A stretch of DNA of 30,196 nt, taken from a virus. Below, piece after piece: positions 7,723 to 29,081 of this stretch. The notes beneath the pieces were generated by a model. It made no database searches and was not told the origin of the DNA. It was given only the letters and a program-made list of their open reading frames with translations. The translations under genes were made by a program, and so were the position numbers. Location: IMG/VR virus record IMGVR_UViG_3300037452_000283, positions 1 through 30,196 of that record; one strand, given 5' to 3'. Position 1 is the first letter of the stretch. Every line of letters begins with the position of its first letter.

Positions 7723-8367
7723 ATGCTCGTGGGTTACGCGCGCATCTCGACCGCCGATCAGCATCACGCCCTCCAATACGATGCGCTCGAGGCGGCCGGA
7801 TGCGAGAAGGTCTTCACCGATACGATCTCGGGCGTCAAAGCTCAACGCCCCGGCCTCGATGAAGCGCTCAAGTTCGTCCGTTCGGGCGATGTCTTGACAG
7901 TCTGGCGGCTCGACCGCTTGGGCCGCTCCCTCCACCACCTGTTGGATCTCACCAAGGGCTTGGCCGACCGCGGCGTCGAGCTCAGGTCCCTGACCGAGTC
8001 GATCGACACACGGAGCGCCACCGGCCGGCTCGTCTTTCACCTGTTCGCGATCCTGGCCGAGTTCGAGCGGGACCTAACCCGCGAGCGCATCGCGCTGGGC
8101 CGAGCCTCAGCCCGCGCCAGGGGCCAGTTGGGCGGCCGGCCGTGCGTCCTCACTGCGGATCAGGCGAGCGCCGTAGCGGCCCTCGTAGGGGCGGGAAACA
8201 TGTCGATCTCGGCCATCGCACGAACGTTCAAGTGCTCCCGTATGACCGTCCACCGGGCGCATGAGCGCGCCACCCGTTCACACTCTATCCCAGATGGCAA
8301 TGGCAAAGCATCAACACCAGAACCAAGACACGACCCGGCTCCTCGACTGGACAAAACTGGATCCTGA
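7723..8367 (+). CDS. Serine recombinase (resolvase/invertase family)
   Basis: A 214-residue small serine recombinase. The N-terminal catalytic domain has YARIST with the nucleophile Ser9, the WRLDRLGRS active-site arginine motif at 61-69, and the long E-helix ending EFERDLTRERIALGR (about 113-127). GGRP at 137-140 leads to a C-terminal helix-turn-helix (about 156-182, SISAIARTFKCSRMTVHRAH). Family members cut and religate DNA at two short sites to resolve dimers, invert or insert segments. The last 25 residues overlap the next gene and look like read-through. Beside a likely origin, dimer resolution of a circular replicon is the simplest role; acting on the 23-bp dispersed elements is a speculative alternative. 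Confidence 0.93.
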   Translation: MLVGYARISTADQHHALQYDALEAAGCEKVFTDTISGVKAQRPGLDEALKFVRSGDVLTVWRLDRLGRSLHHLLDLTKGLADRGVELRSLTESIDTRSATGRLVFHLFAILAEFERDLTRERIALGRASARARGQLGGRPCVLTADQASAVAALVGAGNMSISAIARTFKCSRMTVHRAHERATRSHSIPDGNGKASTPEPRHDPAPRLDKTGS

Positions 8368-8659
8368 CGAGCTGCACGCGCTGGGCTCGCTCGCCCGAAC
8401 GGTGGGGTTTGAAGACACCACCCGGCCGCACGTCCTGATCGACCGCGACCTCTCGGACCCGCTCATGAAGGCCGCGGCCGAGTGGCTGCTCTTGCATCGC
8501 CGGTTCCCCAAAGAGTGGGAGCCCTTCTACGCGCTCACCTGCCGCGCGCTCACATGGACCGACAACGAGACGCCCGAGGACGATGAAAAAGCCCTCATGC
8601 GGATCGCCGTCAAACGCAAGGCCGCGCTGCCGCTGGTGCCCCCACCCGTGGAGGGGTAG
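8294..8659 (+). CDS. Hypothetical protein upstream of the P-loop replication protein
   Basis: A 121-residue acidic, helical protein (LDWTKLDPDELHALGSLART, MKAAAEWLLLHRRFPKEWEP). It overlaps the recombinase by 74 bases if started at ATG 8294; ATG 8300 is an alternative. It ends 3 bases before the GTG of the DUF3987-type gene and its 3' end holds that gene's ribosome site, so the two are probably coupled and may act together in replication. No family recognised. Confidence 0.65.
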   Translation: MAMAKHQHQNQDTTRLLDWTKLDPDELHALGSLARTVGFEDTTRPHVLIDRDLSDPLMKAAAEWLLLHRRFPKEWEPFYALTCRALTWTDNETPEDDEKALMRIAVKRKAALPLVPPPVEG

Positions 8660-8662
8660 GCC

Positions 8663-9967
8663 GTGGCGCAGGGCAACGGCAAGCGACCGGACATTTACGA
8701 GGCCAACCGGCGATACCGTGAAGAACAAGAGGCCGAGACCCAGGAAGACCCACTCCCGGGATGGCCCGAGCCATTGGGAGAGGCGGCGTTCCGCGGGCTG
8801 GCCGGCACTGTGGTCGAGTCGATCGCACCGTACTCAGAGGCCGACCCGGCCGCGATCCTACTGCACTTCCTGGTGGTCGCTGGCGCGATGGTGGGCCGAC
8901 GGCGCTACATGCCGATCGAAGGGAGTAGGCATTGCGGGAACCTCTTTCTTCTGATCGTCGGCGACACGTCGAGCGGGCGGAAGGGCACAGCGTACAGCCA
9001 GGTCCGGCGCATCATGGCCGAGGCGTTCCCCGAGTTCATGCGGAAGAACGTCGCGATGGGGTTGGCCTCGGGCGAGGGGCTCATCAACGCGGTGCGGGAC
9101 GCCACACAGGAAGACCCGGGAGTCGTCGATAAGCGGCTCCTCTGCGTCGAGACCGAATTCGCGAGCGTGCTCCGGGCGCTCGACCGGGACGGCAACACTC
9201 TCTCAGCCCGGCTCCGTCAGGCGTTCGACTCCGGCGACTTCCGGACGATGACCAAGGCCACGCCGCTGATCGCGACCGATGCGCACGTCGCTTTGATTGG
9301 GCACATCACCCCCACGGAGCTCCGGGTCCGGCTTCAGAAGACGGAGATCTCGAACGGGTTACTCAACCGCTTCTGCCTGGCCTGTAGCCGGAGATCGAAA
9401 CGCCGACCGCACGGCGGGGTGGTTCCCGATCGCGAGGTGTACGACCTCGGCCAGGTCGTTCGCGAGATGCTCAACGCGAGTATGATGGGGCAAGTCGAGA
9501 TGGCGCGCGATGCCGACGCGAACGCGCTCTGGGAGACGATGTACGACGAGCTGACGGATGGGTACGCCGGCGAGCTCGGGGAGGTGTTGAGCCGTGCGAC
9601 CGCCCAGGTCGTTCGCCTGTCGATCATCTATGCGACGTTGGATCGGGAGACCTCGATTCGCGTCCCCCACCTCGAGGCGGCACTGGCCGTCTGGCGCTAC
9701 GTCGTTCAGTCCGTGGAGTACCTCTTTACTACTCTCAACCAAGTAGACAGAAGGGCGGACGAATTACTGGAAACGATACGGTCTGCAGGAAAGGTGGGGA
9801 TCACACGGAGTGGGTTGGGGGCCGCGTTGAACCGACGGGTGTCGTCAGCCGAAATGGAGCAGGCGTTGCGCAGTTTGGAGTCGCGCGCGCTCGCGAGCCG
9901 AATTTTTGCGAAAACAAAAGGCCGACCCGTCGAAACGTGGATCGCACGAGAACTGTCCGAAAAATGA
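8663..9967 (+). CDS. DUF3987-type P-loop protein, putative replicative helicase
   Basis: A 434-residue protein. Residues 100-109 (GDTSSGRKGT) form the variant Walker A loop typical of DUF3987/YfjI-like plasmid and phage proteins, and RLLCVETEFA at 158-167 fits Walker B. The C-terminal 65 residues (SAGKVGITRSGLGAALNRR) resemble a winged helix. The family is associated with mobile-element replication, often fused to or near primase domains; no primase domain is visible here. GTG 8663 is preceded by GGAGGGG at 8650-8656. It lies directly upstream of the iteron-rich region and is the only P-loop NTPase I find in the genome, so it may also serve other ATP-dependent steps. Confidence 0.8.
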   Translation: MAQGNGKRPDIYEANRRYREEQEAETQEDPLPGWPEPLGEAAFRGLAGTVVESIAPYSEADPAAILLHFLVVAGAMVGRRRYMPIEGSRHCGNLFLLIVGDTSSGRKGTAYSQVRRIMAEAFPEFMRKNVAMGLASGEGLINAVRDATQEDPGVVDKRLLCVETEFASVLRALDRDGNTLSARLRQAFDSGDFRTMTKATPLIATDAHVALIGHITPTELRVRLQKTEISNGLLNRFCLACSRRSKRRPHGGVVPDREVYDLGQVVREMLNASMMGQVEMARDADANALWETMYDELTDGYAGELGEVLSRATAQVVRLSIIYATLDRETSIRVPHLEAALAVWRYVVQSVEYLFTTLNQVDRRADELLETIRSAGKVGITRSGLGAALNRRVSSAEMEQALRSLESRALASRIFAKTKGRPVETWIARELSEK

Positions 9968-9980
9968 GAATGAAAGTGTA

Positions 9981-10212
9981 CGCGAAAAGCGCGAAAAGCG
10001 CGAAAAGGTCTTAAGTGCTTACGTATCAACGACATCTTTTCGCGCAAATAAACACGCGAATAGTGCGCAATAAGCCATATACCCCCCCCCCCATCCCCCC
10101 CTTTTCGCGCACATCTCATCTGTAGTTTTGCGCGAAAAGATCTCTTAGGGCCGCAACGAGTTAGACCCTTTTCGCGCTTTTCGCGCTTTTCGCGCAGGTA
10201 TACCTTTTCGCG
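9981..10212. other. Candidate replication origin with ten CGCGAAAAG iterons
   Basis: The 338-bp gap between 9967 and 10306 holds ten exact copies of the 9-mer CGCGAAAAG or its complement. Three are tandem at 9981-10007, one is at 10131-10139, and reverse copies are at 10036, 10101, a tandem triplet at 10168-10194, and 10204-10212. The two triplets with their flanks GTCTTAA and TTAGACC form near-perfect inverted arms of about 33 bp. Between them lie an AT-richer stretch (10010-10080) and a C11-AT-C7 tract (10082-10101). Iterons beside a replication gene are the usual architecture of plasmid and phage origins. Confidence 0.75.
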
Positions 10213-10229
10213 CACGCGTTTAGACTCGA

Positions 10230-10254
10230 TACTGTCGCCTTATTGGCGACAGTA
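10230..10254. promoter_or_regulatory. Perfect 10-bp hairpin upstream of the HTH gene
   Basis: TACTGTCGCC (10230-10239) and GGCGACAGTA (10245-10254) form a perfect stem with a 5-nt TTATT loop. No T-tract follows, so a Rho-independent terminator is unlikely. It fits an operator, or part of the origin. Confidence 0.55.
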
Positions 10255-10279
10255 ATTCTGACCGGGTGGTTGCCAAACC

Positions 10280-10296
10280 GTCTATACTGTGTAGAC
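10280..10296. promoter_or_regulatory. Operator-like inverted repeat over a -10-like box
   Basis: GTCTA (10280-10284) and TAGAC (10292-10296) flank TACTGTG. The overlapping TATACT at 10283-10288 resembles a -10 box, though no good -35 is seen. It lies 9 bases before the ATG of the HTH gene and next to its AGGAG ribosome site, a natural place for autorepression. Confidence 0.45.
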
Positions 10297-10305
10297 TAGG
10301 AGCCC

Positions 10306-10554
10306 ATGACGGGAAACGAACGGCGGTTGATGTTCAAGGCGAGCTGCGAGGCAAAGCGAGAAAGTCAGGCCGCCGTATGCCGGAGATGGGACTACACGGT
10401 GACGCACATCACCGATGTCTTGAAAGGCACACGAGCCGGGAGCGCGGGGCTCAAGGATCGGATCGCCCAGTACGTGGGGGTGCCGTTCGATGAGTTCTGG
10501 GGGAGTGACCAGTCGAACGGTGGATCGTCTGTAGAGGAGAAGACGGCAAACTGA
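10306..10554 (+). CDS. Small HTH protein, putative Cro/repressor-like regulator
   Basis: An 82-residue protein with an XRE-like helix-turn-helix in residues about 17-55 (RESQAAVCRRWDYTVTHITD then VLKGTRAGSAGLKDRIAQY) and a polar tail. AGGAG at 10298-10302 supports ATG 10306. It sits immediately downstream of the candidate origin and two inverted repeats. It may repress its own promoter, control copy number, or recognise origin sites. The domain call rests on sequence pattern only. Confidence 0.7.
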   Translation: MTGNERRLMFKASCEAKRESQAAVCRRWDYTVTHITDVLKGTRAGSAGLKDRIAQYVGVPFDEFWGSDQSNGGSSVEEKTAN

Positions 10555-17126: not shown

Positions 17127-18020
17127 GTGACAGCGCCGACGCGGCCCGTGATGCGCTACTACGGGGGCAAGTGGCGACTCGCGCCGTGGATCATCTCCCA
17201 CTTTCCGCCGCACCGCACGTACGTCGAGCTGTTCGGCGGCGCTGGATCCGTACTCTTACAGAAGCCACGGAGCTACGGCGAGATCATCAACGACATCAAC
17301 GGCGATGTGGTCAACCTCTTTCGCATACTGCAGGCGCCAGCATCGGCCGCAAAGCTCCGTCGACTCTGTGAGCTGACACCCTTCGCTCGTGCCGAGTTCG
17401 ATCTGGCGCGAAAATCCACGCGGGATCCGGTCGAGCGCGCGCGGCGCCTCATCGTCCGGGCGTACATGGGGATCGGTTCGGGCGGCGCGCAGGGGAAACC
17501 GACCGGCTTTCGGTTTAGCGCGAATCGCGTGGGGACGACGCCGGCGATGGACTGGGCGCGGTGGCCGGCGCAGATCCCGCGCTATGTCGATCGACTCGCC
17601 AGTGTTGTAGTCGAATGCCAACCCGCGATCGAGCTGCTCGAGGACCACGATGATCCGGGGACGCTCTACTACGTGGATCCCCCGTATCCCCTGGCCTCGA
17701 GGCGGGAGGGGTTGCGGCGCAAAGGGCGGTATCGGCACGAGATGAGCGATACCGAGCATCGGGAGGCCTCAGTGGCCCTCCATGGGGTCGTCGGCATGGT
17801 GGTTGTCTCCGGCTACGACTGCCCGCTCTACGCAGATCTCTACAGCGATTGGGAGAGCGACCGAACGACCGCCACGGCCGATAACGGATGTCACGGCACG
17901 CGATCGATCGCAGATGTGAAGCGGACCGAAGTCGTGTGGCTCAACCCGGCCTGCAGCGCGGCTCTGGCTCGTGCTCGCTGCCAACTCAGCTTACTTGACG
18001 CCGAGCCCGTAGCCCCCTGA
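17127..18020 (+). CDS. DNA adenine-N6 methyltransferase, D12 class (Dam-like)
   Basis: A 297-residue protein with the full class signature: YYGGK at 11-15 (AdoMet-binding motif X), ELFGGAGS at 34-41 (motif I) and the catalytic DPPYP at 184-188 (motif IV). D12 enzymes methylate the N6 of adenine, often in GATC. No partner restriction enzyme is present, so it is an orphan methylase, probably for self-protection of viral DNA or control of replication or transcription. GTG start at 17127 with AGGGA a few bases upstream. It directly follows repeat copy 12. Confidence 0.93.
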   Translation: MTAPTRPVMRYYGGKWRLAPWIISHFPPHRTYVELFGGAGSVLLQKPRSYGEIINDINGDVVNLFRILQAPASAAKLRRLCELTPFARAEFDLARKSTRDPVERARRLIVRAYMGIGSGGAQGKPTGFRFSANRVGTTPAMDWARWPAQIPRYVDRLASVVVECQPAIELLEDHDDPGTLYYVDPPYPLASRREGLRRKGRYRHEMSDTEHREASVALHGVVGMVVVSGYDCPLYADLYSDWESDRTTATADNGCHGTRSIADVKRTEVVWLNPACSAALARARCQLSLLDAEPVAP

Positions 18021-18030
18021 TTGTCCGGAT

Positions 18031-18573
18031 GTGCCCGCCCCCCGCGTTCTCTCCCACGACTGGATCGGCGATGATGACTTGGGCCGGATGCGGACCTTGG
18101 GGAAGATGCGAAACCTCGTCCGATGGGGTTCTCGGAATCGCTACGTCCGTACACTCACCGCTAGCGTTTGTAGTACAGAACGCACCCGATCATCAGTAGA
18201 TCTCGAGCACCGCGCCCGCCAGATCCGCGCCTGGTGTGAACGCTCGATCGACTTCGAGAACGACCCCCCAGGCATAGAACTGCTGTACCAGCCGGAGTAC
18301 TTGGCACGGCTCGCCCTGGCGGGTCTTCGCATCCGGTGCGACTGCGATGACGTGGCTACGTTCTCAGGTGCTATCGCGTACTCGGTGGGACTATCTGTCC
18401 AGTTCCGAGCTGTCTCGTTTCTTGACAAACGAGCCCCCTTCGCTCATGTCTTCACGGAGTTAGGCGTTCCGGCACATCTGGGCGGCGGCGGCCCAGTGGT
18501 CGACGTGGACATCACGCGAGCACAACAGGGATTACCGCCGTGCATCTCAAGGGAGATGGTCATCAAGGTGTAG
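18031..18573 (+). CDS. Transglutaminase-like (papain-fold) protein
   Basis: A 180-residue protein. RCDCDDVATFSGAIAYSVG at 102-120 matches the catalytic-Cys block of the transglutaminase-like superfamily (Cys105 followed by DD). AHVFTEL at 138-144 supplies the His, and VVDVDIT at 156-162 supplies an Asp at the right spacing. Bacterial members are mostly Cys proteases or crosslinkers. In phages such genes often lie near structural genes; here it heads the virion module, so protein crosslinking, proteolytic maturation or peptidoglycan-related cleavage are all possible. GTG start; the first 40 residues are basic and of unknown role. Confidence 0.65.
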   Translation: MPAPRVLSHDWIGDDDLGRMRTLGKMRNLVRWGSRNRYVRTLTASVCSTERTRSSVDLEHRARQIRAWCERSIDFENDPPGIELLYQPEYLARLALAGLRIRCDCDDVATFSGAIAYSVGLSVQFRAVSFLDKRAPFAHVFTELGVPAHLGGGGPVVDVDITRAQQGLPPCISREMVIKV

Positions 18574-18607
18574 GCTCGCGGCTTTCTAGAGGCCCTGAGC
18601 GGGTCGT

Positions 18608-19120
18608 GTGCCGATAGTCGGCCGGCGGACCTTCCGCTCCCGTGGCATGGGTGCCGGCGTCGCGTTTCAAGCGCCCGTCATCATGCGCTCGACGATGCAA
18701 GCCCCGCGCGCGCCGAGCGGCGCACCGACCAAGCCTGTGATCACGGTCCCCACGAAGCCCGTCACCATCTCGATGCCGGGCGCCCCAAAGCTCACGATCC
18801 CGGTGCCGGTCATGCCCGCGCCGAAGCCGGTGGTGACTGGGACGAGGACGCAGGCCCCGACGCCCGCAGCTCCGCCCGCGTTGCCGCCGACTTATGTGAA
18901 TTACCAGATCCCGCCGTCTTCTGGGCCTATCCTCACGGGCCCGATCTCGGGGCCTGGCATCACGGATACGACTGGAGCTCCTCCCGCGCCGCCGCCGGTC
19001 ACCGTTGACAACAGCGGCGGTGGTGGTGGTGGGCCGGTGAGCGTCGCGCCTGCGGCGCAGCCCTTTCCCTGGCTCACGATCCTGGCTATTGCCGGCGGTC
19101 TCTACTTGGTGACCCGATGA
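18608..19120 (+). CDS. Pro-rich protein with C-terminal membrane anchor
   Basis: A 170-residue protein: basic N-terminus (VGRRTFRSRGMGAG), about 120 residues of Pro/Thr/Ala-rich sequence with repeated KPV units (TKPVITVPTKPVTISMPGAP), a Gly run, and a final transmembrane helix (FPWLTILAIAGGLYLVTR). It shares the layout of basic start, extended middle and C-terminal anchor with the next two proteins. I infer a virion membrane or spike-linker protein. GTG start; no clear ribosome site. Confidence 0.7.
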   Translation: MPIVGRRTFRSRGMGAGVAFQAPVIMRSTMQAPRAPSGAPTKPVITVPTKPVTISMPGAPKLTIPVPVMPAPKPVVTGTRTQAPTPAAPPALPPTYVNYQIPPSSGPILTGPISGPGITDTTGAPPAPPPVTVDNSGGGGGGPVSVAPAAQPFPWLTILAIAGGLYLVTR

Positions 19121-19130
19121 AGGCGACGTC

Positions 19131-19922
19131 ATGACGATGCACCAGATGGTGGTCTCGCGCCCCGTCGCGCGGAGAGGGTTCCTACGCGGCCGGCACATGG
19201 GCGCCTACCCGATGATGCGCGGGATGGGACAGGGGTTCGACTTCACGAGCCTCTTCAGCCCGACGAGCAGCAGCTCGTCATCGTCCAGCTCGACTGCCGC
19301 GCTCACGACGGCCGGAAACGCGGCCGGTGCGGCGATCGGCGTGCCTGGCGCGGGCTCGATCGCGTCGGGCGTCGTGTCGACGTTGTCGTCCATCTTCGGC
19401 GGGAACCCGGCGACGGGCGCGGATGCGGAACGGCAAGCGCACGTGTATTCGATCTACGAGACCGCGATGACGTCTCCGGGCTCCGCGGCCTCGGTCGATG
19501 CGGTGATCGAGCTCTACACGATGGCCGGCAATCTTTTCGACCCGGTCAACAACGTTCAGCAGAACAACCCGCAAGCGACAAGGACGTACAGCCAGCAAGC
19601 CTTGCAGATGTTGGCGACGCAGGGCTGGCAAAACGTGAATAGCTTGAAGCCCTCGTATACGGGTGTAGCCGCATCGGGCGTCGTGTACGGGACGGACCCG
19701 ACGACGGGCCAGGCGGTGATCGTCGGGCAGAACCCGATCGCGCCGGCGGGACTCTCGGGGCTTTTCTCGTCTCCCTTGTTCCTGCCCGCGGTGCTGATCG
19801 GCGGATTCTTCCTGCTGCGAGGCTCCAAGGCGTCGGCAAGTGCCACCGTGCATCACACGACCTCGAGTAACCCGCGGCGGCGTCGTCGGCACAACCGGAA
19901 ACGCCGGAGAGCCACGCGATGA
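19131..19922 (+). CDS. Putative virion membrane protein with Arg-rich tail
   Basis: A 263-residue protein. The N-terminus is basic with GAYPMMRGMGQGFDF at about 24-38, then a run of Ser, a Gly/Ala-rich segment, a helical domain (VYSIYETAMTSPGSAASVDA), one transmembrane helix (LFLPAVLIGGFFLLRG, about 217-232) and a tail of about 18 residues nearly all Arg, Lys, His and Asn (RRRRRHNRKRRRATR). By the positive-inside logic the tail would face DNA. It looks paralogous in layout to the next gene, which starts in an ATGA overlap. I infer an internal-membrane, DNA-contacting virion protein; no named family. Confidence 0.75.
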   Translation: MTMHQMVVSRPVARRGFLRGRHMGAYPMMRGMGQGFDFTSLFSPTSSSSSSSSSTAALTTAGNAAGAAIGVPGAGSIASGVVSTLSSIFGGNPATGADAERQAHVYSIYETAMTSPGSAASVDAVIELYTMAGNLFDPVNNVQQNNPQATRTYSQQALQMLATQGWQNVNSLKPSYTGVAASGVVYGTDPTTGQAVIVGQNPIAPAGLSGLFSSPLFLPAVLIGGFFLLRGSKASASATVHHTTSSNPRRRRRHNRKRRRATR

Positions 19923-20425
19923 CGATGGTGGCGCCGTACACGCAGGGCGCGCTTTCGGGATTCGGGCGTCGACGCAAGGCCATGATGCGCGCGTACCCGA
20001 GATTCATGGGACAAAATCCATTCACTGGCCTCATTAATTGGGCAGAGAATGTTGCGGGCGGGTTACCGAGCAACGCGCCGGAAGCCGGCGGCGGCTACGT
20101 CGTCACTGGCACGAATGGGGATGGCTCGACGAACATCAACTACACCGATTCTAGTGGTAATCAGGGATCACTGACGGTGCCAGCCGGTGTAGATCCAGCC
20201 ACCTATATCGCGACGCAGACGGGCGCCGGTACGACCCCTCCCATCATCCCGCCGGGCATCGTGCCCAGCGTCCCGTCGTGGGTCTACTGGGCGGTGGGTG
20301 GCGTACTCGTGCTCGTGCTCCTCGGGTATTCGGGCGTGGGCAAGCTGATCCCCGCATCGCGGCCGTCCGTCGCGACGAACTATCGCCGTCGTCATAACCG
20401 CCGGCGTAACCGGTCGAGGCGCTGA
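19919..20425 (+). CDS. Putative virion membrane protein with Arg-rich tail
   Basis: A 168-residue protein with the same order of parts as its upstream neighbour: start MTM, Arg cluster (GFGRRRKAMMRAYPRFMGQN), a small beta-rich domain (YVVTGTNGDGSTNINYTDSS), a transmembrane helix (SWVYWAVGGVLVLVLLGYSG) and a final Arg/Asn-rich tail (YRRRHNRRRNRSRR). The shared RAYP/MGQ motif argues for common descent or a common assembly signal. Probably in the same membrane layer. ATGA overlap at the start. Confidence 0.75.
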   Translation: MTMVAPYTQGALSGFGRRRKAMMRAYPRFMGQNPFTGLINWAENVAGGLPSNAPEAGGGYVVTGTNGDGSTNINYTDSSGNQGSLTVPAGVDPATYIATQTGAGTTPPIIPPGIVPSVPSWVYWAVGGVLVLVLLGYSGVGKLIPASRPSVATNYRRRHNRRRNRSRR

Positions 20426-20428
20426 CGT

Positions 20429-20728
20429 GTGCGCTCCCGCTCAGCAGCTCGTCCAGTGCGCGTGCGAAACCCGGCGCTCGTCGTCGTCGGCAATCCCCCA
20501 CGCGGCAAGGGCATCATCATCTCCCACAACGTCCAAGCCGTCCTCTATCTCCGAGATGATGATGGCGTGCCCTACGTCCACGCCTTCGGCTACGGCGAGC
20601 ACGAAGAACCGCCCGAGCCGAAAGAACGAGGGGACACGCTGATGCTCCGCGGACTGAAAGACGACACGGGCGTCGAAGCCGTGCTCTTGTCGGATGGATC
20701 CATCCTCTTGCGTGGACCGGTCCGGTGA
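20429..20728 (+). CDS. Hypothetical protein sharing an NPALVV motif with the next gene
   Basis: A 99-residue protein with a basic start (MRSRSAARPVRVRNP) that leads into NPALVVVGNPPRGK. The nearly identical motif NPALVVFGNRPRK recurs at the start of the next protein. The rest is a beta-rich, acidic domain (AVLYLRDDDGVPYVHAFGYG, VEAVLLSDGSILLRG). GTG start at 20429, one base before the next gene's ATG at its end. I infer a virion or core component because of the shared motif; function unknown. Confidence 0.65.
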   Translation: MRSRSAARPVRVRNPALVVVGNPPRGKGIIISHNVQAVLYLRDDDGVPYVHAFGYGEHEEPPEPKERGDTLMLRGLKDDTGVEAVLLSDGSILLRGPVR

Positions 20729-20729
20729 C

Positions 20730-21725
20730 ATGGCCTCTCGCGTCCCGCTCTGGCTCACCGATGAGACCGGCCGCTCCTGGGTCAATAACCCCGCGCTCGT
20801 CGTCTTCGGCAATCGTCCGCGAAAGTCCCGTTCACCTTCCCGCCGGAACTCTCTAATGGCCAAACGTCGCCGCAAAAGGAACAAGCTCCACGGCGCCGCG
20901 CTCGCCGCCCACCAGCGGAAGGCGAACCGTGGCAAGCGCCGTCGCACCAACCGCCGCCGCGCCCACGCGCGGACATCTGCGCGCACCGCGCCCGCGCGCC
21001 GCTCGAATCGTCGTCGCGCGCACACCCGTCGTCGCACGAACGTCTCTCACTCCCGCCGGAGGGTTTCCGTGGCTACCCGTCGCCGCCGTCGTTCCAACTC
21101 GCATCACGCAACGCACAAGCGGCGCCGTCGCCACAATGCGTCGTCGCACCGCCGGGTGCATGCTCGGACCCGTCGCCGGAACGCCTATCCGGTCGCCTTG
21201 AACCGGAAGCGCCGCCACAACCGTCGTCGCCGTCGGAACCCGGATTTCATGGGGATGGGCAAGGGGATCGTCAAGGACGTGACGTCGACGGTCATGAACG
21301 GCGCCGTGGACTCGCTCTTCGGTGCCGGCGGGTGGCTCGCCGCCCAGGCAGGCAGCTCGCTCATCCCGATCACCGACAGCTCGACCACCGAGATCTTGGG
21401 GCTGATGCCGATCGACACGCTGAAGCGGCTCGGTACGAGCGTCTTGCTCGGTGTCGTCGCCAAGAAGATGCGCGTCTCGGATGTGCACGCCCGCATGCTC
21501 GTGATGGGCGGGTTCCTGAACACCGTGCTGTCGGTCGTCGAGAGCTTGATCCCGACGTCGCTCGCGGGGAACTTGGGCCTCTATCCCGGCGCGCCGCAGA
21601 TGGCGGGCATGGGTGACGCCTTCGTCGCCTCAGGGTTCTTCCCACCGCTCCCCGGCGGCACGCACGGCGACTATCACGGCGATCCGGCGTTCATGGGCGC
21701 CTACTACCAGGGCGGCGGGCACTAG
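20730..21725 (+). CDS. Protamine-like Arg-rich protein fused to hydrophobic domain
   Basis: A 331-residue protein. Residues 29-170 are extremely basic (clusters such as AKRRRKRNKLHG, RRRTNRRRAHARTSARTA, NRKRRHNRRRRRNP), like a protamine or viral core protein that condenses DNA. Residues 171-331 are hydrophobic and Gly-rich (VTSTVMNGAVDSLFGAGGWL, LKRLGTSVLLGVVAKKM, VVESLIPTSLAGNLGLYPGA), suggesting membrane or capsid association. An internal ATG at 20856 (MAKRRRKR) could give a shorter form, but the N-terminal NPALVV motif shared with the upstream gene favours 20730. I infer a protein tethering genome to membrane or shell. Confidence 0.75.
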   Translation: MASRVPLWLTDETGRSWVNNPALVVFGNRPRKSRSPSRRNSLMAKRRRKRNKLHGAALAAHQRKANRGKRRRTNRRRAHARTSARTAPARRSNRRRAHTRRRTNVSHSRRRVSVATRRRRRSNSHHATHKRRRRHNASSHRRVHARTRRRNAYPVALNRKRRHNRRRRRNPDFMGMGKGIVKDVTSTVMNGAVDSLFGAGGWLAAQAGSSLIPITDSSTTEILGLMPIDTLKRLGTSVLLGVVAKKMRVSDVHARMLVMGGFLNTVLSVVESLIPTSLAGNLGLYPGAPQMAGMGDAFVASGFFPPLPGGTHGDYHGDPAFMGAYYQGGGH

Positions 21726-21783
21726 GCCCGGCCTGACATCAATCGGATACTGACTCCCTCTCTCACTCAGACTCTCGCCTCCT

Positions 21784-22428
21784 ATGTCACTCCGCATCGT
21801 TGTTCAGGCCCTGCCGCAGGCCGTCCTGGTCGGAAGATCAACCCCACTTTTTAGTGCACAAGGAGAAACTATTCCGTGGGTATTCTACGATACCCAGTCG
21901 TACGCCGCGGCCGGAACGGTCTCCAACCTCAACTATTTCCAGACGGTGCAGAGCGACAAGACGCTCGGCAATCTGGACCAGGGCGGCCAGCTCCCGGCCG
22001 GGTTCTTCCACCAGATCAACAGCTTCCAGTTCGATCCGCTGTCGCTCCCGGCCATCGCGGCCGCAGGTGCGGCGGGCACGACGCTGGCCGGCCCGGCGCA
22101 GGATCTGGCCATCCTCTTCTCGACGGCCCGTGCGCTGTTTCAGTTCACGATCTCGAGCAAGCTGTACGTGCAGGTCCCGCTCACGTATCTCCACGCCTCG
22201 GGGTATCCCGTGGCGGTGCTGTCGGGTGCGTTCACGGCCGCCACGCAGGCCCAGTTCGTGGGCAACAGCTTCCCGGATGGGGATTACTACATCGGGAACA
22301 ACATCATCATCCCGCCCCAGCAGGCGTTCCTGGCGAGCATCATCTTCGCCGGCGCGCCGAACGCGATCAACGCAGCTACCAACCTGCGTATCGGCATGCC
22401 GGGCGCGCTGACCCGCCGCGTGTTGTAA
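21784..22428 (+). CDS. Putative major capsid protein, jelly-roll-like
   Basis: A 214-residue protein, strongly beta-patterned with few charges. Strand-like stretches include LRIVVQALPQAVLVG, ALFQFTISSKLYVQVPLTYL and YYIGNNIIIPPQQAFLASII. GNLDQGGQLPAGFFHQINSF resembles a motif I associate with small jelly-roll capsid proteins of uncultured viruses, but I cannot confirm it by search. Size fits single-jelly-roll capsomers such as those of P23-77 and SH1. A 58-nt pyrimidine-rich leader without Shine-Dalgarno precedes ATG 21784, and a strong hairpin follows the stop, both consistent with a specially regulated, highly expressed gene. Confidence 0.5.
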   Translation: MSLRIVVQALPQAVLVGRSTPLFSAQGETIPWVFYDTQSYAAAGTVSNLNYFQTVQSDKTLGNLDQGGQLPAGFFHQINSFQFDPLSLPAIAAAGAAGTTLAGPAQDLAILFSTARALFQFTISSKLYVQVPLTYLHASGYPVAVLSGAFTAATQAQFVGNSFPDGDYYIGNNIIIPPQQAFLASIIFAGAPNAINAATNLRIGMPGALTRRVL

Positions 22429-22442
22429 TCGCGGGTGCAGGA

Positions 22443-22480
22443 CACGACGTGCACGGGCCCGAAGTCTCGTGCACGTCGTG
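22443..22480. promoter_or_regulatory. 13-bp perfect hairpin after the putative capsid gene
   Basis: CACGACGTGCACG (22443-22455) pairs exactly with CGTGCACGTCGTG (22468-22480) around a 12-nt loop. The loop and the 3' flank carry further complementary GGCCC/GAAGTC and GACTTCGGCC runs, allowing alternative folds. No T-tract follows, so it may be an RNA stabiliser, processing site or partial terminator between capsid genes. Confidence 0.65.
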
Positions 22481-22572
22481 GTAGGGGCCCGACTTCGGCC
22501 AGTTGTATGTGTTTTTCACATAGTCTCGCCATTCGCTTTCGTCTTTCTCTCGCGCTCTGGGCGCTGACCACT

Positions 22573-23181
22573 ATGCCGCAAGCCCCTGCTACTGGGATGT
22601 CGATCCCGCAGACCATCTCGGACTTGCTGCTGCCCGGGAACCCGTTCTTGGGCACGCTCCCGCGCAAGTATTGGTTCTGCCTGAAGAAAGCCTTCGCCTA
22701 CGGGTTCGATGCGCTGCCGCTGGCGGCCGGGGCCTCGAGCGTCCAGTTCTCGATCACGATCGACTCGGACTCGGACTTCGTCTTCATGTTGCCGACGATG
22801 ATCGTGACCGACACGACGAACCTGATCCAGAAGTCGTTCGCGCCGGCGACCGTCAACGTGAGCTCGTCCTTGAACAATCAGTTCATGTTCCAGACGGCGC
22901 GGCACGTGATGACGTTCGCGTCGATCCCCACGGTGATCGTGCCGCAGTACTTGCCGATGGCGTACATCTACCCGAAGGGGACGGTCCTCAACACCGTGCT
23001 CTCGAATCTGGACACGGTGAACGCCTACAACTACCGGTTCACCTACTGGGGGTTCAAGGCGTACACGCAGGTCCCGGCCGACTCGGGGAACGGCGACGGA
23101 TCGGGAAGCCCGAGCGACGGTTCCTCGGGGATGAGTGCCTATCCCATGATGAGGGCCTATCCGGCCTACGGGCGCCGCTAG
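22573..23181 (+). CDS. Putative second capsid or vertex protein, beta-rich
   Basis: A 202-residue protein with beta-sandwich-like patterning: SVQFSITIDSDSDFVFMLPT, HVMTFASIPTVIVPQYLPM and YNYRFTYWGFKAYTQVP. The DSDSDF turn after the first strand recalls small virion proteins of tailless viruses. The C-terminus has a Gly/Ser linker and ends in SAYPMMRAYPAYGRR, the same AYPMMR motif as the membrane protein at 19131. The frame is open upstream to 22435 but that part overlaps the hairpin; ATG 22573 is preferred. Two adjacent capsid-like genes match the two-capsomer design of sphaerolipovirus-type shells, though the fold is unproven. Confidence 0.5.
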   Translation: MPQAPATGMSIPQTISDLLLPGNPFLGTLPRKYWFCLKKAFAYGFDALPLAAGASSVQFSITIDSDSDFVFMLPTMIVTDTTNLIQKSFAPATVNVSSSLNNQFMFQTARHVMTFASIPTVIVPQYLPMAYIYPKGTVLNTVLSNLDTVNAYNYRFTYWGFKAYTQVPADSGNGDGSGSPSDGSSGMSAYPMMRAYPAYGRR

Positions 23182-23185
23182 TCCC

Positions 23186-23278
23186 GTGACGCGACGCATG
23201 CGCGCGCTCTACGTCGCCCGCTCGGTGCGGGACACGCTCTGGGAGTTGGCGATCACCGTCGTCTGCCTCGGGGTCTAA
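23186..23278 (+). CDS. Possible 30-residue peptide
   Basis: A GTG-started frame (MTRRMRALYVARSVRD then TLWELAITVVCLGV) fills the gap between two virion genes. It is basic at the start and hydrophobic at the end, like a very small membrane peptide. No ribosome site is seen; the codon use matches neighbours. Only weak support. Confidence 0.35.
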   Translation: MTRRMRALYVARSVRDTLWELAITVVCLGV

Positions 23279-23283
23279 GTCTC

Positions 23284-23979
23284 GTGGCCTTTCAGCGGAC
23301 GAGCGGATTGATCCGGCGGTTGAACCGCTCGGCGATGGCACCGCCGCAGCATCAGCGCTTCGTGCCGCCGCAGTCTATGCCGAACAACGGCGCGGCGGCC
23401 GACCCGTCCGCGTACTTGGACGAGATGATGTACCACGCCACGGCCGATGGCGTGTCGGCACCGTACGATCCGGGGAACCCCGGCGGGCCACCGAACGCGA
23501 TCCCAGCCGTCCAAGTCCACCCGGTCTGGGAGTTCCCGCCCAGCAATGCGTTTCAGTTCTACCTGAACGTCACGAGCACGCAGTCAGCGATCGGGGCGGG
23601 GACGCAGTTGCCGGCGATCATCGGTGCGCAGCTCTTGCTGCCCGAGCTCGTGTACGTGCCGCCCCCGAACATGTTCACGGTGTTGCGCCTGGCGTCCATC
23701 TTCATCGACAACCCGACGCAGGCCGAGAACGTGAGCTACATCATCCGGATCAACCAGGCGCCGGTCTCCGGGTTCACGTTTAAATTCTTCCCCCGGATTG
23801 CCGCCAACGAGTCGACTGATTTCGAGTTCGTCTTACGCGACATCCCGCAAGGCGCCCAGGTCGACATGTTGATTCAGAACAATGCGAACACGGGCCCATG
23901 GACGGTGGGGGGCGCCTTGTCGGGATGGAGTTACTTGAAGTCGGACGAGATCGCGCTCTACGGGAACGTGCGGGTGTAG
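23284..23979 (+). CDS. Putative virion protein, beta-rich
   Basis: A 231-residue protein. The first 75 residues are basic and Pro/Gln-rich (TSGLIRRLNRSAMAPPQHQR). The rest is beta-patterned (AFQFYLNVTSTQSAIGAG, MFTVLRLASIFIDNP, VSYIIRINQAPVSGFTFKFF, ESTDFEFVLRDIPQGAQVDM), suggesting another beta sandwich with an extended arm. It is the third capsid-like gene in a row and may be a vertex, spike or minor capsid protein. GTG start; function inferred from position. Confidence 0.55.
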   Translation: MAFQRTSGLIRRLNRSAMAPPQHQRFVPPQSMPNNGAAADPSAYLDEMMYHATADGVSAPYDPGNPGGPPNAIPAVQVHPVWEFPPSNAFQFYLNVTSTQSAIGAGTQLPAIIGAQLLLPELVYVPPPNMFTVLRLASIFIDNPTQAENVSYIIRINQAPVSGFTFKFFPRIAANESTDFEFVLRDIPQGAQVDMLIQNNANTGPWTVGGALSGWSYLKSDEIALYGNVRV

Positions 23980-23980
23980 C

Positions 23981-24178
23981 GTGGATTATCTCGTGGTCGT
24001 GTCGAGTCGCGCCGGGGAGATGCGGGCCGTGGCGGTCGATACGCCGGAGCATGCCGAAGATGCCGCGCTTGCCATGATGAACGACTGGCTGGATGCGGGA
24101 CCGTGGCCCGCTCGACTGGAAAGGTCGATGAAGATCCTCTCGCGTGTCGAGGGCGGTACCGTCTACCGCGAGGGCTAG
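23981..24178 (+). CDS. Hypothetical small protein
   Basis: A 65-residue protein in a strand-helix-strand layout (DYLVVVSSRAGEMRAVAVDT, EDAALAMMNDWLDAG). It sits between a virion gene and the fibre gene with no gap on either side. Role unknown; possibly a fibre assembly factor. Confidence 0.6.
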   Translation: MDYLVVVSSRAGEMRAVAVDTPEHAEDAALAMMNDWLDAGPWPARLERSMKILSRVEGGTVYREG

Positions 24179-25480
24179 ATGGCCTTCGGCACCCAGTCGG
24201 TCATCATCTCGAACGGGATCCAGGCCGGGCCGAGCTTCACGCTCGCGCAAGGACTCTTTGTCTCCGTCGTCTCGCCGGCGACCGCAAGCAGCTCCGCATC
24301 GCTTAGACTGACCGCTGGGCCCCCAGACCAGATCGAGATCGGCCCGAGCACGACCCCACACGCGACCGTCATCGGGTTCGGTGCCACGGTCCCTGTCGGC
24401 GGCGCTGGGAATCAGGTCGTCATCGGCACCGCGGCAACAACGGCCGACACGCAAGACGATGTCGTCATCGGACACGGAGCCGCGACTGGTGCCGTCAATG
24501 CGGGGAACGGATCAGTCGCGGTCGGTGTCTCGGCGACGGTCGGCGGCGCAGGCTCGAACGCAGGCGGTGGCGTCGCGATCGGGAACGCGGCCTTGGCGAA
24601 CAACGGCGTCGCGATCGGGCAGGGCGCTACATGCTTGACCGGCCAGGTCGCGGTCGGATTCGGCGCCGTAGCCGTCACGTTCGGGATCGCCGTCGGCGGG
24701 TCGGCGACCGCATCGTTCGGTGGCGGACATGGCTTGGGCTCGATCGCCATCGGCCGGAGCGCGAGTGCATCCGAATCGACCGATATCGCGATCGGCACGG
24801 GGAACGGCGGGACGGCGGGCGGTGGGGGCGGCAACATCGTCCTGGCGTCAGGCGTCGGCGGATCCGGCGCTCAGGGCCACGACTCGATCGTCATCGGCTC
24901 GTCCAGCAACAACGGCGGTGCCGCGTTGCCCGCGTCAGCCACGGCCGCCGGCATCTTCTCGACCGTCATTGGCGGCAATAGCCAAGCGCAGCACTCGGGC
25001 GCGCGGTTGCTCGGCCGAGGCCTCACCTCGACCGCCGCGAATCAAACGCTGATCGGTGGGACGGATGACCCGTGCGCCACGGTCGTGTGGGGGAACGGCG
25101 CGGTCGCCGCAGCTCCGCAGAACGTGGTCGAAGGGGTGACGGGCGGATCGGGGTTGAACGTCGGGGGCGCTTCCTACACGATCGCGGGCGGGATCGCGAC
25201 GGGCAGCGGGACGGGCGGCTCGATCATCTTCCGGACGAGCGTCGTCGCCGGGTCGAGCTCCACGCCGCAAGCGTTGGCAACCGCTCTCACGATCGACAAC
25301 ACGCAGACGGTGACGTTCGCCGTAGCACCGAAGATCACGGCGACAGTAGCGACCGGCGCGGTAACTCTGGGCGCGTTGACGAATGCGCCGGGCACGGCGA
25401 CGGCGGCATCCCCGCCGCAGGCATGGGGGGCCATCTTCATCGGTGCCACGCGCTACGTAATGCCGTTGTGGACGGCGTAA
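24179..25480 (+). CDS. YadA-like head-repeat fibre protein, putative receptor-binding
   Basis: A 433-residue Gly/Ala/Ser/Val-rich protein. From about residue 80 to 240 it carries repeats of the type VAIGxxAxA with 14-20 residue spacing (SVAVGVSATV, VAIGNAALANNGVAIGQGAT, SIAIGRSASASESTDIAIGT). This is the hallmark of the left-handed beta-roll heads of trimeric autotransporter adhesins (YadA family). No anchor domain is present, as expected for a virus fibre. The C-terminal 150 residues are also beta-rich and may trimerise. I infer a trimeric host-binding spike. ATG directly follows the upstream stop. Confidence 0.75.
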   Translation: MAFGTQSVIISNGIQAGPSFTLAQGLFVSVVSPATASSSASLRLTAGPPDQIEIGPSTTPHATVIGFGATVPVGGAGNQVVIGTAATTADTQDDVVIGHGAATGAVNAGNGSVAVGVSATVGGAGSNAGGGVAIGNAALANNGVAIGQGATCLTGQVAVGFGAVAVTFGIAVGGSATASFGGGHGLGSIAIGRSASASESTDIAIGTGNGGTAGGGGGNIVLASGVGGSGAQGHDSIVIGSSSNNGGAALPASATAAGIFSTVIGGNSQAQHSGARLLGRGLTSTAANQTLIGGTDDPCATVVWGNGAVAAAPQNVVEGVTGGSGLNVGGASYTIAGGIATGSGTGGSIIFRTSVVAGSSSTPQALATALTIDNTQTVTFAVAPKITATVATGAVTLGALTNAPGTATAASPPQAWGAIFIGATRYVMPLWTA

Positions 25481-25508
25481 CTCGTCTAGTGCGGTAAGTT
25501 CCCCTCTT

Positions 25509-26432
25509 ATGCCCTTCCCCCGTCGCCCCAGGCGGCCACCGCGGTGGGGCTACTTCATGATCCCGCAGCAGCCCTTGCCGGTCGTCATCCCGCGCGAGTC
25601 CTGCGGCAAAGGATCGGGTTCGCAGGCCGGGAATGATCTGGACCAGTTGGCGGCATCGACGACATCGATCACGTGGTCCAATCTTTCGTCGGTTCGCTAC
25701 GGAGTCACGCAAGTCGCCGGCAAGGTCTCGGCGGTCGCCGACGGCCGGACGATCAATCCCGGGTTCGGGGTCACGCAGGCGAACGGCGCCAAGCAACCGA
25801 CGATCTCGGGGTCAGGTCAAAGCCTCGTCATCGCCACGGACGGCGCCGCGACCTGTCTCGTGAGTGCCCTGCAGGCCTCGCTCGACTTAAGCCAGACGTG
25901 CATCGGCATGATGGGTGTGCTGACCCTGGTGGATCCGCCAGCGACACGCAGCACGTTCCACTTCGCGATGTCGATCTCGGTGGCGAGCAATATCCCGGGT
26001 ATGTTCCTGGCCCGCGACTCGCCCGCGATCAACCCGCAAGTGGGCGACGCCTATGTCTACTTCGACAACCAGGCCGGGTCGAACGCCTTCGTCGATCCGA
26101 TCGCCCAGGTGGCGGCCGGCTCTGAGGCGGCGGCCGGCCAGCGCACGCTCTGGGGCAAGCGCACGCTCGTCCTCATGTGGCGCACGGCGGCCAACTACTT
26201 CTGGTGCGTGCCACCGTTGCCAATCGTACAGGTGGCGGCGCCGGCGGCTTCCTCGGCCGGCAACTGCCTCTTCGCGATCGGCACGGATGGGTCGGGAACG
26301 TTGTTCGATGCGAACCAGTACCGCGCGTGGGGGACGTTCACGGCGCCGACCGTGGCCGGACCGAGTGCCGCCGACATCAAGACGATTCTAGGCTGGGCGA
26401 CCGGCAACGAGCTCTGTCTCAATGACCCGTGA
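25509..26432 (+). CDS. Lectin-like (concanavalin/LamG-type) host-contact protein
   Basis: A 307-residue protein. A Pro/Arg-rich N-terminus (RRPRRPPRWGYFM) precedes a segment SSVRYGVTQVAGKVSAVADG, then NGAKQPTISGSGQSLVIATD. This order (linker, ANGAKQPT, then a strand) is typical of concanavalin-like domains in viral and bacterial surface proteins. The C-terminal AADIKTILGWATGNELCL resembles the end of such domains. Four or more Cys may form disulfides. Position between the fibre and an esterase suggests carbohydrate binding at the virion surface. The domain call is by pattern only. Confidence 0.55.
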   Translation: MPFPRRPRRPPRWGYFMIPQQPLPVVIPRESCGKGSGSQAGNDLDQLAASTTSITWSNLSSVRYGVTQVAGKVSAVADGRTINPGFGVTQANGAKQPTISGSGQSLVIATDGAATCLVSALQASLDLSQTCIGMMGVLTLVDPPATRSTFHFAMSISVASNIPGMFLARDSPAINPQVGDAYVYFDNQAGSNAFVDPIAQVAAGSEAAAGQRTLWGKRTLVLMWRTAANYFWCVPPLPIVQVAAPAASSAGNCLFAIGTDGSGTLFDANQYRAWGTFTAPTVAGPSAADIKTILGWATGNELCLNDP

Positions 26433-26442
26433 GCGTTGAGCC

Positions 26443-27060
26443 ATGACCCTCGTCATCCACGGGATAGACTCGATCTCGTTCGGCTTCAATCTCCCCGACC
26501 GGGCATTGAACTACGCGACGATCGCCATCACGACCGCGCCGGCGTTGGGGTGGGGAGACGTGGGGACCGGGGTCCCATCGCGCACGCTCGTGCAGGCGAA
26601 CGCCGATGCGCTGACGTACCTGGGCCAGTTCGCTAGGGCTCGCAACAAGACGATCTTCGTCCTCATGGCCAGCCCCAACGATCTCGCGGCCAACCAGCTG
26701 ACCGGCCCGCAGTGCTTGACGCAGTACTCGACGTTGGTGTCGACCGTCCGCGGGTTCGTCGGAAGTCCGAAGATCATCCTATGCGACCCGTTACCGCGCA
26801 CCCTCGCCACGATGGGCGGGGGTCAGACGTTGCTCGGGTTCCAGACGGGACGCGCCACGATCCTGGCCGGGTTCAACGGCGCCACGTTCCCCGGCATCTA
26901 TGGCGATGTGCGGTGCGCATGGGGCGCTGACCCCTTCTTCGGCACCGATGGGAACGAGAACGACACCACGAAATACGGCGATGGCGTGCACCCCACGGCA
27001 CTCGTGCATTCTGCCGCCCACATGGCCGGGTACGTAACGACCGCCTTTGGCCTCATCTAG
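26443..27060 (+). CDS. SGNH/GDSL-family hydrolase, putative depolymerase or deacetylase
   Basis: A 205-residue protein with the SGNH triad motifs in order: IDSISFG at 8-14 (block I, nucleophile Ser10, the usual Gly replaced by Ile), ASPND at 76-80 (block III Asn79), and DGVHPT at 180-185 (block V, Asp180 and His183). The block II Gly may be in the GTGV stretch near 41-44. These enzymes cleave esters such as O-acetyl groups on polysaccharides. Following the fibre and lectin-like genes, the likely job is trimming host surface glycans during entry. The signal peptide is absent, consistent with a virion component. Confidence 0.75.
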   Translation: MTLVIHGIDSISFGFNLPDRALNYATIAITTAPALGWGDVGTGVPSRTLVQANADALTYLGQFARARNKTIFVLMASPNDLAANQLTGPQCLTQYSTLVSTVRGFVGSPKIILCDPLPRTLATMGGGQTLLGFQTGRATILAGFNGATFPGIYGDVRCAWGADPFFGTDGNENDTTKYGDGVHPTALVHSAAHMAGYVTTAFGLI

Positions 27061-27071
27061 GAGCCACTGTT

Positions 27072-27923
27072 ATGCCGGATCCCGCCCGCCAAGCCGCCGC
27101 GACGCTCATGAACCCGTTGACGTTGAACGGGGGCCGAGCGCCAACCTTCGTCACCGGCAACTACTCGATACGGAAGGACGATGGGTGGATCGTCGTCATC
27201 CCCCAGATCGCTACGGGCACGATCACCATCCAGCTTCCGGCCGACCCGGACCCCGGAGCGACCTACTTCGTGAGCCGGGGACTCATCTTCGCCGCGGCCG
27301 AGACCGGGCCCGTCGACGTCGTGGTCGTCGGGAATCCACAGCAGGCGGCATCGGGTGGGTATGACACTATCTACGGGATCGGCGCCAACCTCGGCGGCTA
27401 CCACATCAGCCGCTTCAACGAGACCGTGGGGTTCGGCGTCTCGACGCAGCAGCCGAACTTCGCGCCGCACCCCTACACGGACTGGTTCGCCTTTGGTGGC
27501 CTGGGGTTCGAGTCCTACAGCGCGGCGTTTGTGCCCAACTTGGCCGGGGCGGTCACCGTACCGCTCGCGGGGTTCGCATTGGGGAACGGCGGCGGGGATG
27601 GCGGGCATCCCCGGAGCTTATACGGCGTCTCGCTCGTGGTGAGCCCGCCCCTTTCGGCCGGCAACTTGAAGGTGTCCCCGCGGTTCAACGGCGTCGCGGC
27701 CGTGCCCGACTTGCTGGACTTGAACTCCGCCACGCAGCCGGCCGCGTCCCGCTTCACAGCCGGGAGCCCGATCGCGGGAACGGGGGTCGACTTCTTTACG
27801 GCGCCACCGGGGTCCTATCTCATGACGCCGCCGGCGGCCGGTGGGATCTTGGATGTGGTGATCACGGGCTCCGGCGGCGCGGCCGGTCCCACGGCTGGGG
27901 TCGTGACGGCTCTCGTATTCTGA
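27072..27923 (+). CDS. Hypothetical beta-rich surface protein
   Basis: A 283-residue Gly-rich, beta-patterned protein (TGNYSIRKDDGWIVVIPQIA, GTITIQLPADPDPGATYFVS, GNLKVSPRFNGVAAVP, ILDVVITGSGGAAG). The opening strand plus TGTITIQLP is like the start of many phage and virus fibre-end domains. It belongs to the host-contact run by position. No named family. Confidence 0.65.
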   Translation: MPDPARQAAATLMNPLTLNGGRAPTFVTGNYSIRKDDGWIVVIPQIATGTITIQLPADPDPGATYFVSRGLIFAAAETGPVDVVVVGNPQQAASGGYDTIYGIGANLGGYHISRFNETVGFGVSTQQPNFAPHPYTDWFAFGGLGFESYSAAFVPNLAGAVTVPLAGFALGNGGGDGGHPRSLYGVSLVVSPPLSAGNLKVSPRFNGVAAVPDLLDLNSATQPAASRFTAGSPIAGTGVDFFTAPPGSYLMTPPAAGGILDVVITGSGGAAGPTAGVVTALVF

Positions 27924-27947
27924 CCCGCTTGAGGTAGATTCGACTCT

Positions 27948-28241
27948 ATGACGAAAGACGAACAGGTGGTCTTAGACGTCCTCGAGCACAACGCGAAGCA
28001 GTGGGATGCAACCGACCCAACGCAGGCGCAGACGTTCCGCGATGCCGCGCGCGTACTCAAGGATGTGACGGAAGGACGGCTCGTCACGGTGTCAGCCGCC
28101 CCGGCGGTCGATCCCGCCACGGTGCTCGTCCCAGACCACACGCCGGCGGCGACGACGAGCACAGATCCCGCGGATGCGCCCGCGCCCCCGTCCGTCCACA
28201 CGCCCACCGACTACGACGCGGAGACGCCCGCCCATGGGTAA
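27948..28241 (+). CDS. Hypothetical protein
   Basis: A 97-residue acidic protein with a helical N-terminal part (KDEQVVLDVLEHNAKQWDAT, FRDAARVLKDVTEG) and a long Ala/Thr/Pro-rich tail. GAGGTAG about 11 nt before ATG 27948 is a plausible ribosome site. The next gene starts 8 bases before its stop. Function unknown. Confidence 0.65.
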   Translation: MTKDEQVVLDVLEHNAKQWDATDPTQAQTFRDAARVLKDVTEGRLVTVSAAPAVDPATVLVPDHTPAATTSTDPADAPAPPSVHTPTDYDAETPAHG

Positions 28242-28692: not shown

Positions 28693-28865
28693 TGCGACGC
28701 ATCAAAGGCGCGCCGATGAGCCAGAGCGAGATGTTCGGTGAGAAGCCGAGCAAGCCGGTGATTACGCGCGCGTGGGTCGTGAAGTCCGTGACACTCTACG
28801 TGGTCTTGCTCGCGGTCGTGTGGTACTTAGGGTGGCGGTACCTTGGGAGCGGGATGACGCACTGA
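28692..28865 (+). CDS. Small single-pass membrane protein (57 residues)
   Basis: A short gene exactly between TGATG junctions. A basic, polar N-terminus (RRIKGAPMSQSEMFGEKPSK) is followed by a transmembrane helix (SVTLYVVLLAVVWYLGWRYL) and a short tail. It could be a minor virion membrane protein or part of the lysis set that follows. Confidence 0.65.
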   Translation: MRRIKGAPMSQSEMFGEKPSKPVITRAWVVKSVTLYVVLLAVVWYLGWRYLGSGMTH

Positions 28866-29080: not shown

Positions 29081-29081
29081 G

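Follow-up and report, generated by a model that had tools for sequence, protein, structure and literature searches.

A mirrored array of iterons at positions 9981-10212 of a phage genome is, in our judgment, very likely the replication origin of this phage, read by the C-terminal winged helix (WH) of the DUF3987 helicase encoded just upstream; its opposed triplets would take up two hexamers, and the iteron word would be specific to each helicase lineage. The sequence analyzed here, referred to as the window, is the whole of virus record IMGVR_UViG_3300037452_000283 (30,196 bases, A+T about 35%), whose 127-base terminal repeat indicates a complete circular phage genome. We compared it with G001, a colinear viral contig of 31,786 bases that has a 50-base terminal repeat and encodes a helicase 91% identical to that of the window. 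The following features of the window enter the argument.

7723-8367: serine recombinase gene of the resolvase/invertase type, upstream of the helicase gene
8261-8659: unassigned open reading frame of 132 residues, upstream of the helicase gene
8663-9967, plus strand: DUF3987 gene, 434 residues (Pfam E 9.9e-15), the proposed initiator
9746-9964, plus strand: WH coding stretch, residues 362-434, delimited by the secondary structure of the model; the proposed iteron reader
9782-9850, plus strand: the part of the WH that differs most from G001, residues 374-396 (10 of 36 differences)
9981-10007, plus strand: left iteron triplet, three copies of CGCGAAAAG at a 9-bp period
10036-10044, minus strand: single iteron, mirroring 10131-10139
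10055-10074, plus strand: degenerate iterons CGCGAATAG (10055-10063) and CGCAATAAG (10066-10074), with better units at this place in G001
10082-10101, plus strand: C-tract (C11, AT, C7) on the mirror axis
10101-10109, minus strand: single iteron, mirroring the degenerate copy at 10066-10074
10131-10139, plus strand: single iteron, mirroring 10036-10044
10168-10194, minus strand: right iteron triplet, three copies at a 9-bp period in reverse orientation
10204-10212, minus strand: outer single iteron, with no mirror partner
10306-10554: gene for a small helix-turn-helix (HTH) protein, next after the array (weak HTH_31 match, E 0.0062, below the Pfam cut-off)
29067-29744: endolysin-like gene

All ten exact copies of CGCGAAAAG in the window fall within 9981-10212, compared with a mean of 0.39 and a maximum of 2 copies in 100 first-order Markov shuffles of the 30-kb window. 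The initial annotation, made from the sequence alone, had counted these ten copies and had described tandem triplets of opposite orientation at 9981-10007 and 10168-10194; both the count and the triplets, in coordinates and orientation, proved correct. The layout is exactly mirrored about an axis at 10087.5, on which the two triplets pair, as do 10036-10044 with 10131-10139 and the degenerate 10066-10074 with 10101-10109, and it attains the full mirrored-triplet score of 63 of 63 (strict scoring, 9-bp period). Long inverted arms had also been noted, and a repeat search returned arms of 94 nt with 74% complementarity; the C-tract reported between them resolves into C11 at 10082-10092 and C7 at 10095-10101. 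The description of the intervening stretch as AT-richer holds in part: at 50% A+T, the spacer (10008-10167) exceeds the roughly 35% of the whole window, but it does not exceed the arms. A single terminator-like site in the vicinity (10053-10069, minus strand) did not exceed chance level and was set aside.

The array had been placed between a replication gene and an HTH gene. The preceding gene does encode a DUF3987 protein, and a gene does follow at 10306-10554, although its assignment as HTH is weak, with a match below the cut-off. A plasmid-like stage of the phage is hinted at by the serine recombinase, which is conserved at 80% in G001. No primase was recognized among the window proteins scanned against Pfam and PHROGs, and the window gave zero Rfam matches and zero tRNA genes. 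Comparison of 30 window proteins with PHROGs revealed no recognizable head, tail, or terminase gene at 18000-28700, and this part of the genome possibly specifies an unusual virion type. Encoded within it is a 214-residue protein (21784-22428), 97% identical to its G001 counterpart, for which neither the PDB nor PHROGs gave a match. Separately, a dispersed 20-base word, GGGGTGGACCGAGAACGGTC or near forms of it, occurs in 12 copies on both strands of the window against 0.02 expected (positions 2778, 3629, 4877, 5201, 5428, 7451, 11397, 11842, 13432, 15059, 16734, and 17067); several copies are close to the starts of open reading frames, and the word recurs in G001, there partly at different positions.

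The window helicase contains DUF3987 as its sole Pfam domain at E up to 0.01, with no primase domain. An AlphaFold2 model of the protein, built with a 35-row alignment, reached a pLDDT of 88.6 and a pTM of 0.79. Structural comparison (Foldseek and VIA-align) matched this model to many MCM chains with Z of 17.0-19.0, the best being the Z of 19.0 to chain 6 of the human replisome 7pfo, with 260 residues superposed at an rmsd of 3.2 (VIA-align); sequence identities were about 15% or less. On the basis of the model, we confidently predict that the DUF3987 product is an MCM-like AAA+ helicase with a C-terminal WH, the latter comprising a helix that ends at residue 374, helices at 382-388 and 395-407, and strands at 411-416 and 423-428. 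A chain of the Rep protein of staphylococcal pathogenicity islands (SaPIs) was not among the 50 PDB matches listed for the model, which excludes nothing.

Comparison with close relatives links the array to this WH. In G001, the array keeps nearly the layout of the window, and units of GGCGGAAAG or a near form replace CGCGAAAAG; its right triplet is degenerate and broken, and single units persist. A third locus, L014, whose helicase is 75% identical to that of the window, has GGCAAAAAG units in a similar layout. The initial annotation had stated that a lack of iterons in close relatives with the same replication gene would count against its reading; the relatives have iterons, of different sequence. 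That about ten repeat copies changed in the same way suggests that they are recognized in trans by a factor which changed with them. Between the window and G001, 10 of the 36 aligned differences in the helicase fall within the 23 residues 374-396 (hypergeometric p 2.3e-6), a segment that in the model begins where the first WH helix ends and reaches the beginning of the third. G001 additionally has tandem CGGCTACGGC-type repeats after the HTH gene (L005:7976-8600), which the window lacks.

To place the array within the helicase family, we searched viral contigs with alignments of six and then ten homologues, obtaining 43 and 72 overlapping loci. Of the 81 loci entered, 73 were scored after near-duplicates and loci with less than 250 bp past the stop codon were dropped; 45 of these, the window included, encode helicases at least 32% identical to the window protein and constitute the clade, and the other 28 are distant. 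An array was called at a mirrored-triplet score of at least 45 with a 9-bp period, within a region from 200 bp upstream to 350 bp downstream of the stop codon. With this threshold, picked after the scores were seen, arrays are present at the helicase 3′ end in 21 of the 45 clade loci and 0 of the 28 distant loci, and the same score is reached in 3 of 624 other 550-bp windows of the clade loci (Fisher 3e-6 for clade versus distant loci, 2e-24 for clade versus other windows). Periodicity was likewise concentrated at 9 bp, where z exceeded 4 in 25 of 45 loci as against 0 to 9 of 45 for other periods from 6 to 12, these z values being rough (15 shuffles each). One apparent relative, L008, was rejected as spurious, its match falling in an open reading frame of another kind.

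The family unit is roughly [C/G]G[A/C]NN[A/T]AAG, and the polarity of the two iteron sets varies between clade members. Runs of at least six C or G accompany 6 of the 21 family arrays (1.2 expected); the spacer is AT-richer than its own locus in 13 of 21, so that an AT-rich spacer is not a consistent trait. The remaining 24 clade members do not reach the strict score; among them are loci with a different period and a few in which no array is visible. L080 carries ten same-strand copies, nine at an 11-bp period and one ahead of them, with no second arm, L065 and L021 have iteron units of 7 and 8 bp, respectively, and inspection of L063 and L070 revealed no array. At two loci (L015:3992-4104 and L020:3744-3813) the left iteron set lies within the coding 3′ end, where the iterons encode tripeptide repeats (NPS, DQS), the 9-bp period corresponding to three codons. 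In L073, a mirrored CGCGGAAAG-type array (L073:3940-4040) is found at the start of the DUF3987 frame, not at its end. L059 has a second mirrored array of CGAAAAAAG type (L059:1255-1335; 63 of 63) about 3.8 kb before the helicase stop codon, near the start of a 489-residue open reading frame without a Pfam match. Primase matches (Prim-Pol, PriCT-1, and weak Toprim) occur in or before the DUF3987 protein of several relatives scanned, and in L058, L064, L017, and L066 an AEP primase is joined to or lies beside the DUF3987-WH unit. In the stretches examined of distant DUF3987 homologues (Thermobifida phage P318, the Streptomyces phages Ibantik and Ponzi, and Nonomuraea), there was no repeat cluster of the window type, and we do not claim that the iteron architecture extends to all DUF3987 proteins.

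In the clade, the iteron word tracks the WH. Of the 45 loci, 29 had a unit that could be named; a script called 23 of these words, and the remaining six (L058, L066, L082, L089, L071, and L079) were assigned by hand. Once core distance was removed, iteron distance correlated with WH distance (partial Mantel r 0.328, p 0.0023), and the correlation holds without the hand-set words, as the 23 script-called loci by themselves gave r 0.402 (p 0.0023). No such relation to iteron distance appeared for a core segment used as control (r -0.03 for 29 loci, -0.06 for 23). Within the protein, residue 383 is the top-ranked of 304 columns for positions 4 and 5 of the iteron, although the stretch 370-400 overall is only mildly enriched (p 0.03). 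With three later loci added, Asn383 accompanies G at positions 4 and 5 in 6 of 6 cases, compared with 1 of 26 without Asn383, and position 4 is C or G in 12 of 15 cases with Arg386, compared with 2 of 17 without it; both pairings were chosen post hoc on data already seen, and the word entered for L177 is one of its two. On the core tree, Asn383 changes six times and GG seven times, and the supported independent pairs agree in 4 of 4 instances, a number that cannot reach significance (p 0.125). The helicases of L080 and L084, whose contigs share metagenome number 3300048832, differ at 68 of 399 sites, with Asn and Ser, respectively, at residue 383; their arrays are unlike (CGCGGTAAG and CGATTTAAA) and their flanking sequences alike, and the helicase differences show no significant clustering in 374-396 (p 0.08).

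These pairings suggest a more ambitious proposal, which we advance tentatively and rate at somewhat less than an even chance: that the clade's DUF3987 proteins are MCM-like initiators, each acting at its own origin through opposed hexamers, with a code at residues 383 and 386 and diversification by swapping of helix and array. The second WH helix would read the middle of the iteron through these two residues, Asn383 specifying GG, Trp or Leu383 specifying AG, and Thr383 together with Arg386 specifying C, and replicons such as the window, G001, and L014, or L080 and L084, may have diverged by exchanging helix and array jointly. A blind scan with three iteron-word patterns and predictions written beforehand returned 48 stretches, four with a helicase, and no new locus; all four were on contigs already in the set, and the scan therefore gives the rule no support. 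Among 297 genomes searched, all from a single bacterial phylum, three proved to encode a clade helicase. L176 (Thr383, Ser386) has CGAAAGAAA units and L178 (Thr383, Arg386) has CGAC units, both as expected, and the six units of L177 (Asn383, Arg386) divide evenly between CGCGG and CGCCA, fitting the rule in half; these few cases were judged after the rule was formed.

Might the repeats instead belong to the neighboring HTH gene, as operators through which its product governs lysogeny, copy number, or its own promoter? Operators are commonly laid out as multiple repeats next to a DNA-binding gene, and here the gene is directly downstream of the array with a promoter-like site at 10270-10297. 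An HTH homologue, however, was found in 1 of 50 fetched clade loci (L005; some contigs contributed two cuts to the 50), yet arrays recur, and L014 has an array with no HTH gene nearby. The HTH core is also largely unchanged between the window and G001 (VTHITDVL is kept) although all the repeats changed, and an operator is more naturally seen in a separate perfect inverted repeat of 10 bp at 10230-10254, which is closer to the gene. We consider this account very improbable, and binding of the array by the HTH protein, which the initial annotation had proposed to assay, is not supported: it is probably not the binder. With the HTH core largely conserved and the HTH gene rare in the clade, and with the helicase differences clustered in the WH, the WH is the better candidate reader. 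The inverted repeat itself (TACTGTCGCC-TTATT-GGCGACAGTA, before the HTH gene) is likely the operator of that gene. A partition (centromere-like) or other maintenance site in place of an origin appears still more improbable. Partition sites can be short-repeat arrays beside small DNA-binding genes, the serine recombinase suggests plasmid-like maintenance, and the extremes of GC skew are away from the array; on the other hand, no ParA-like protein was detected among the window proteins scanned against Pfam, and in relatives the array accompanies the helicase gene, its sequence tracking the helicase WH.

The inverted arms could also act by structure, a hairpin or cruciform being recognized and the word mattering less, as proposed for the origin stem-loop of the plasmid pRN1. 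The single strand of 9978-10198 folds with a z of -11.0 and its G001 counterpart with -5.8, and pRN1 requires a 100-nt stem-loop 3′ of its replication gene (PMC4234260). The copy outside the arms (10204), however, has the same word; L080 dispenses with a second arm; single units persist in G001 where the right triplet is broken; and the word covaries with the WH. Recognition of sequence fits these observations better, and we regard recognition of structure as quite improbable, although folding of this strength makes a cruciform step possible.

The preferred reading, in which the array is an origin read by the helicase, is well supported by comparison of sequences, given that arrays recur at the helicase 3′ end and that the word tracks the WH. 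In the mechanism we envisage, the C-terminal WH of the helicase would recognize the array, several subunits would occupy the triplets at their 9-bp period, and the opposed triplets would probably assemble two oppositely oriented MCM-like hexamers, which would melt the DNA between or beside them and set up two forks. The MCM-like fold makes two opposed hexamers attractive, and together with the mirrored sites renders the bidirectional loading suggested by the initial annotation plausible; mirror symmetry is not universal, the repeats of L080 all being on the same strand. Each helicase lineage would have its own iteron word and matching WH, so that related replicons would not cross-initiate. GC skew, which the initial annotation had proposed as a test, formally speaks against an origin at the array: its cumulative extremes are at about 1.2 kb (minimum, 1176) and 17.9 kb (maximum, 17939), with similar places in G001. 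We give this little weight, since the skew is weak and its range small, and consider it uninformative as an origin marker here.

Should this reading be right, DUF3987, a domain of "unknown function" in phages and mobile elements, gains a testable job as an initiator helicase with a named origin, and origins could be found from sequence in many uncultured replicons. With natural sets of similar helicases that differ in iterons and WHs, specificity, incompatibility, and double-hexamer loading could be examined in a simple one-protein system.

The closest parallels are the replication modules of SaPIs and other phage-inducible chromosomal islands (PICIs). According to PMC7581432, SaPI Rep uses its C-terminal domain to read iterons that immediately follow its gene, and it appears to bind them as two hexamers; in PICIs, the origin directly follows the initiator gene and has an AT-rich region with an iteron set on either side (PMC6092414). 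The window shares the order of a proposed initiator helicase gene followed by two opposed iteron sets, and a helicase C-terminal domain as the proposed iteron reader. The SaPI/PICI spacer is AT-rich; that of the window is 50% A+T against about 35% for the genome, and AT-richness of the spacer is not consistent in the family. The helicases differ, being of DUF927 or Primase_Cterm/D5_N type in SaPIs and of DUF3987 type in the window, and the window, a circular phage record of 30 kb, encodes an endolysin of its own and is not a satellite island. The alpha protein of phage P4 includes a Toprim-type primase; the window protein has an MCM-like core and no primase domain. Both join a WH to a helicase; in P4 alpha the WH binds origin repeats (PMC4234260), and in the window protein such binding is predicted. 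Kazlauskas et al. (2018; PMC5862659) predicted DUF3987 to be a helicase and, in the text accessible, proposed the WH of related primase-helicases for origin recognition; the PrimQH type described there resembles the window protein in its DUF3987 ATPase followed by a WH, the proposed origin reader, and that accessible text gives no iterons for it. PrimQH-type proteins also resemble relatives of the window helicase in having Prim-Pol or PriCT-1 upstream of DUF3987, whereas the window helicase is a separate protein with no recognized primase. MCM helicases share the AAA+ core fold and C-terminal WH; they are loaded by ORC/Cdc6, not by iteron reading of their own, and the 434-residue window protein lacks the MCM N-terminal domain. 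A literature search, most subscription journals being outside its reach, found no work joining DUF3987 with iterons, and the accessible texts on DUF3987 and replication origins describe none at the gene. The kind of system is thus known from SaPIs, and the helicase family, the joint change of word and WH, and the size of the clade appear to be new; the array is best read as the downstream iteron origin of a self-loading helicase, organized as in SaPIs and PICIs and built on a different helicase family.
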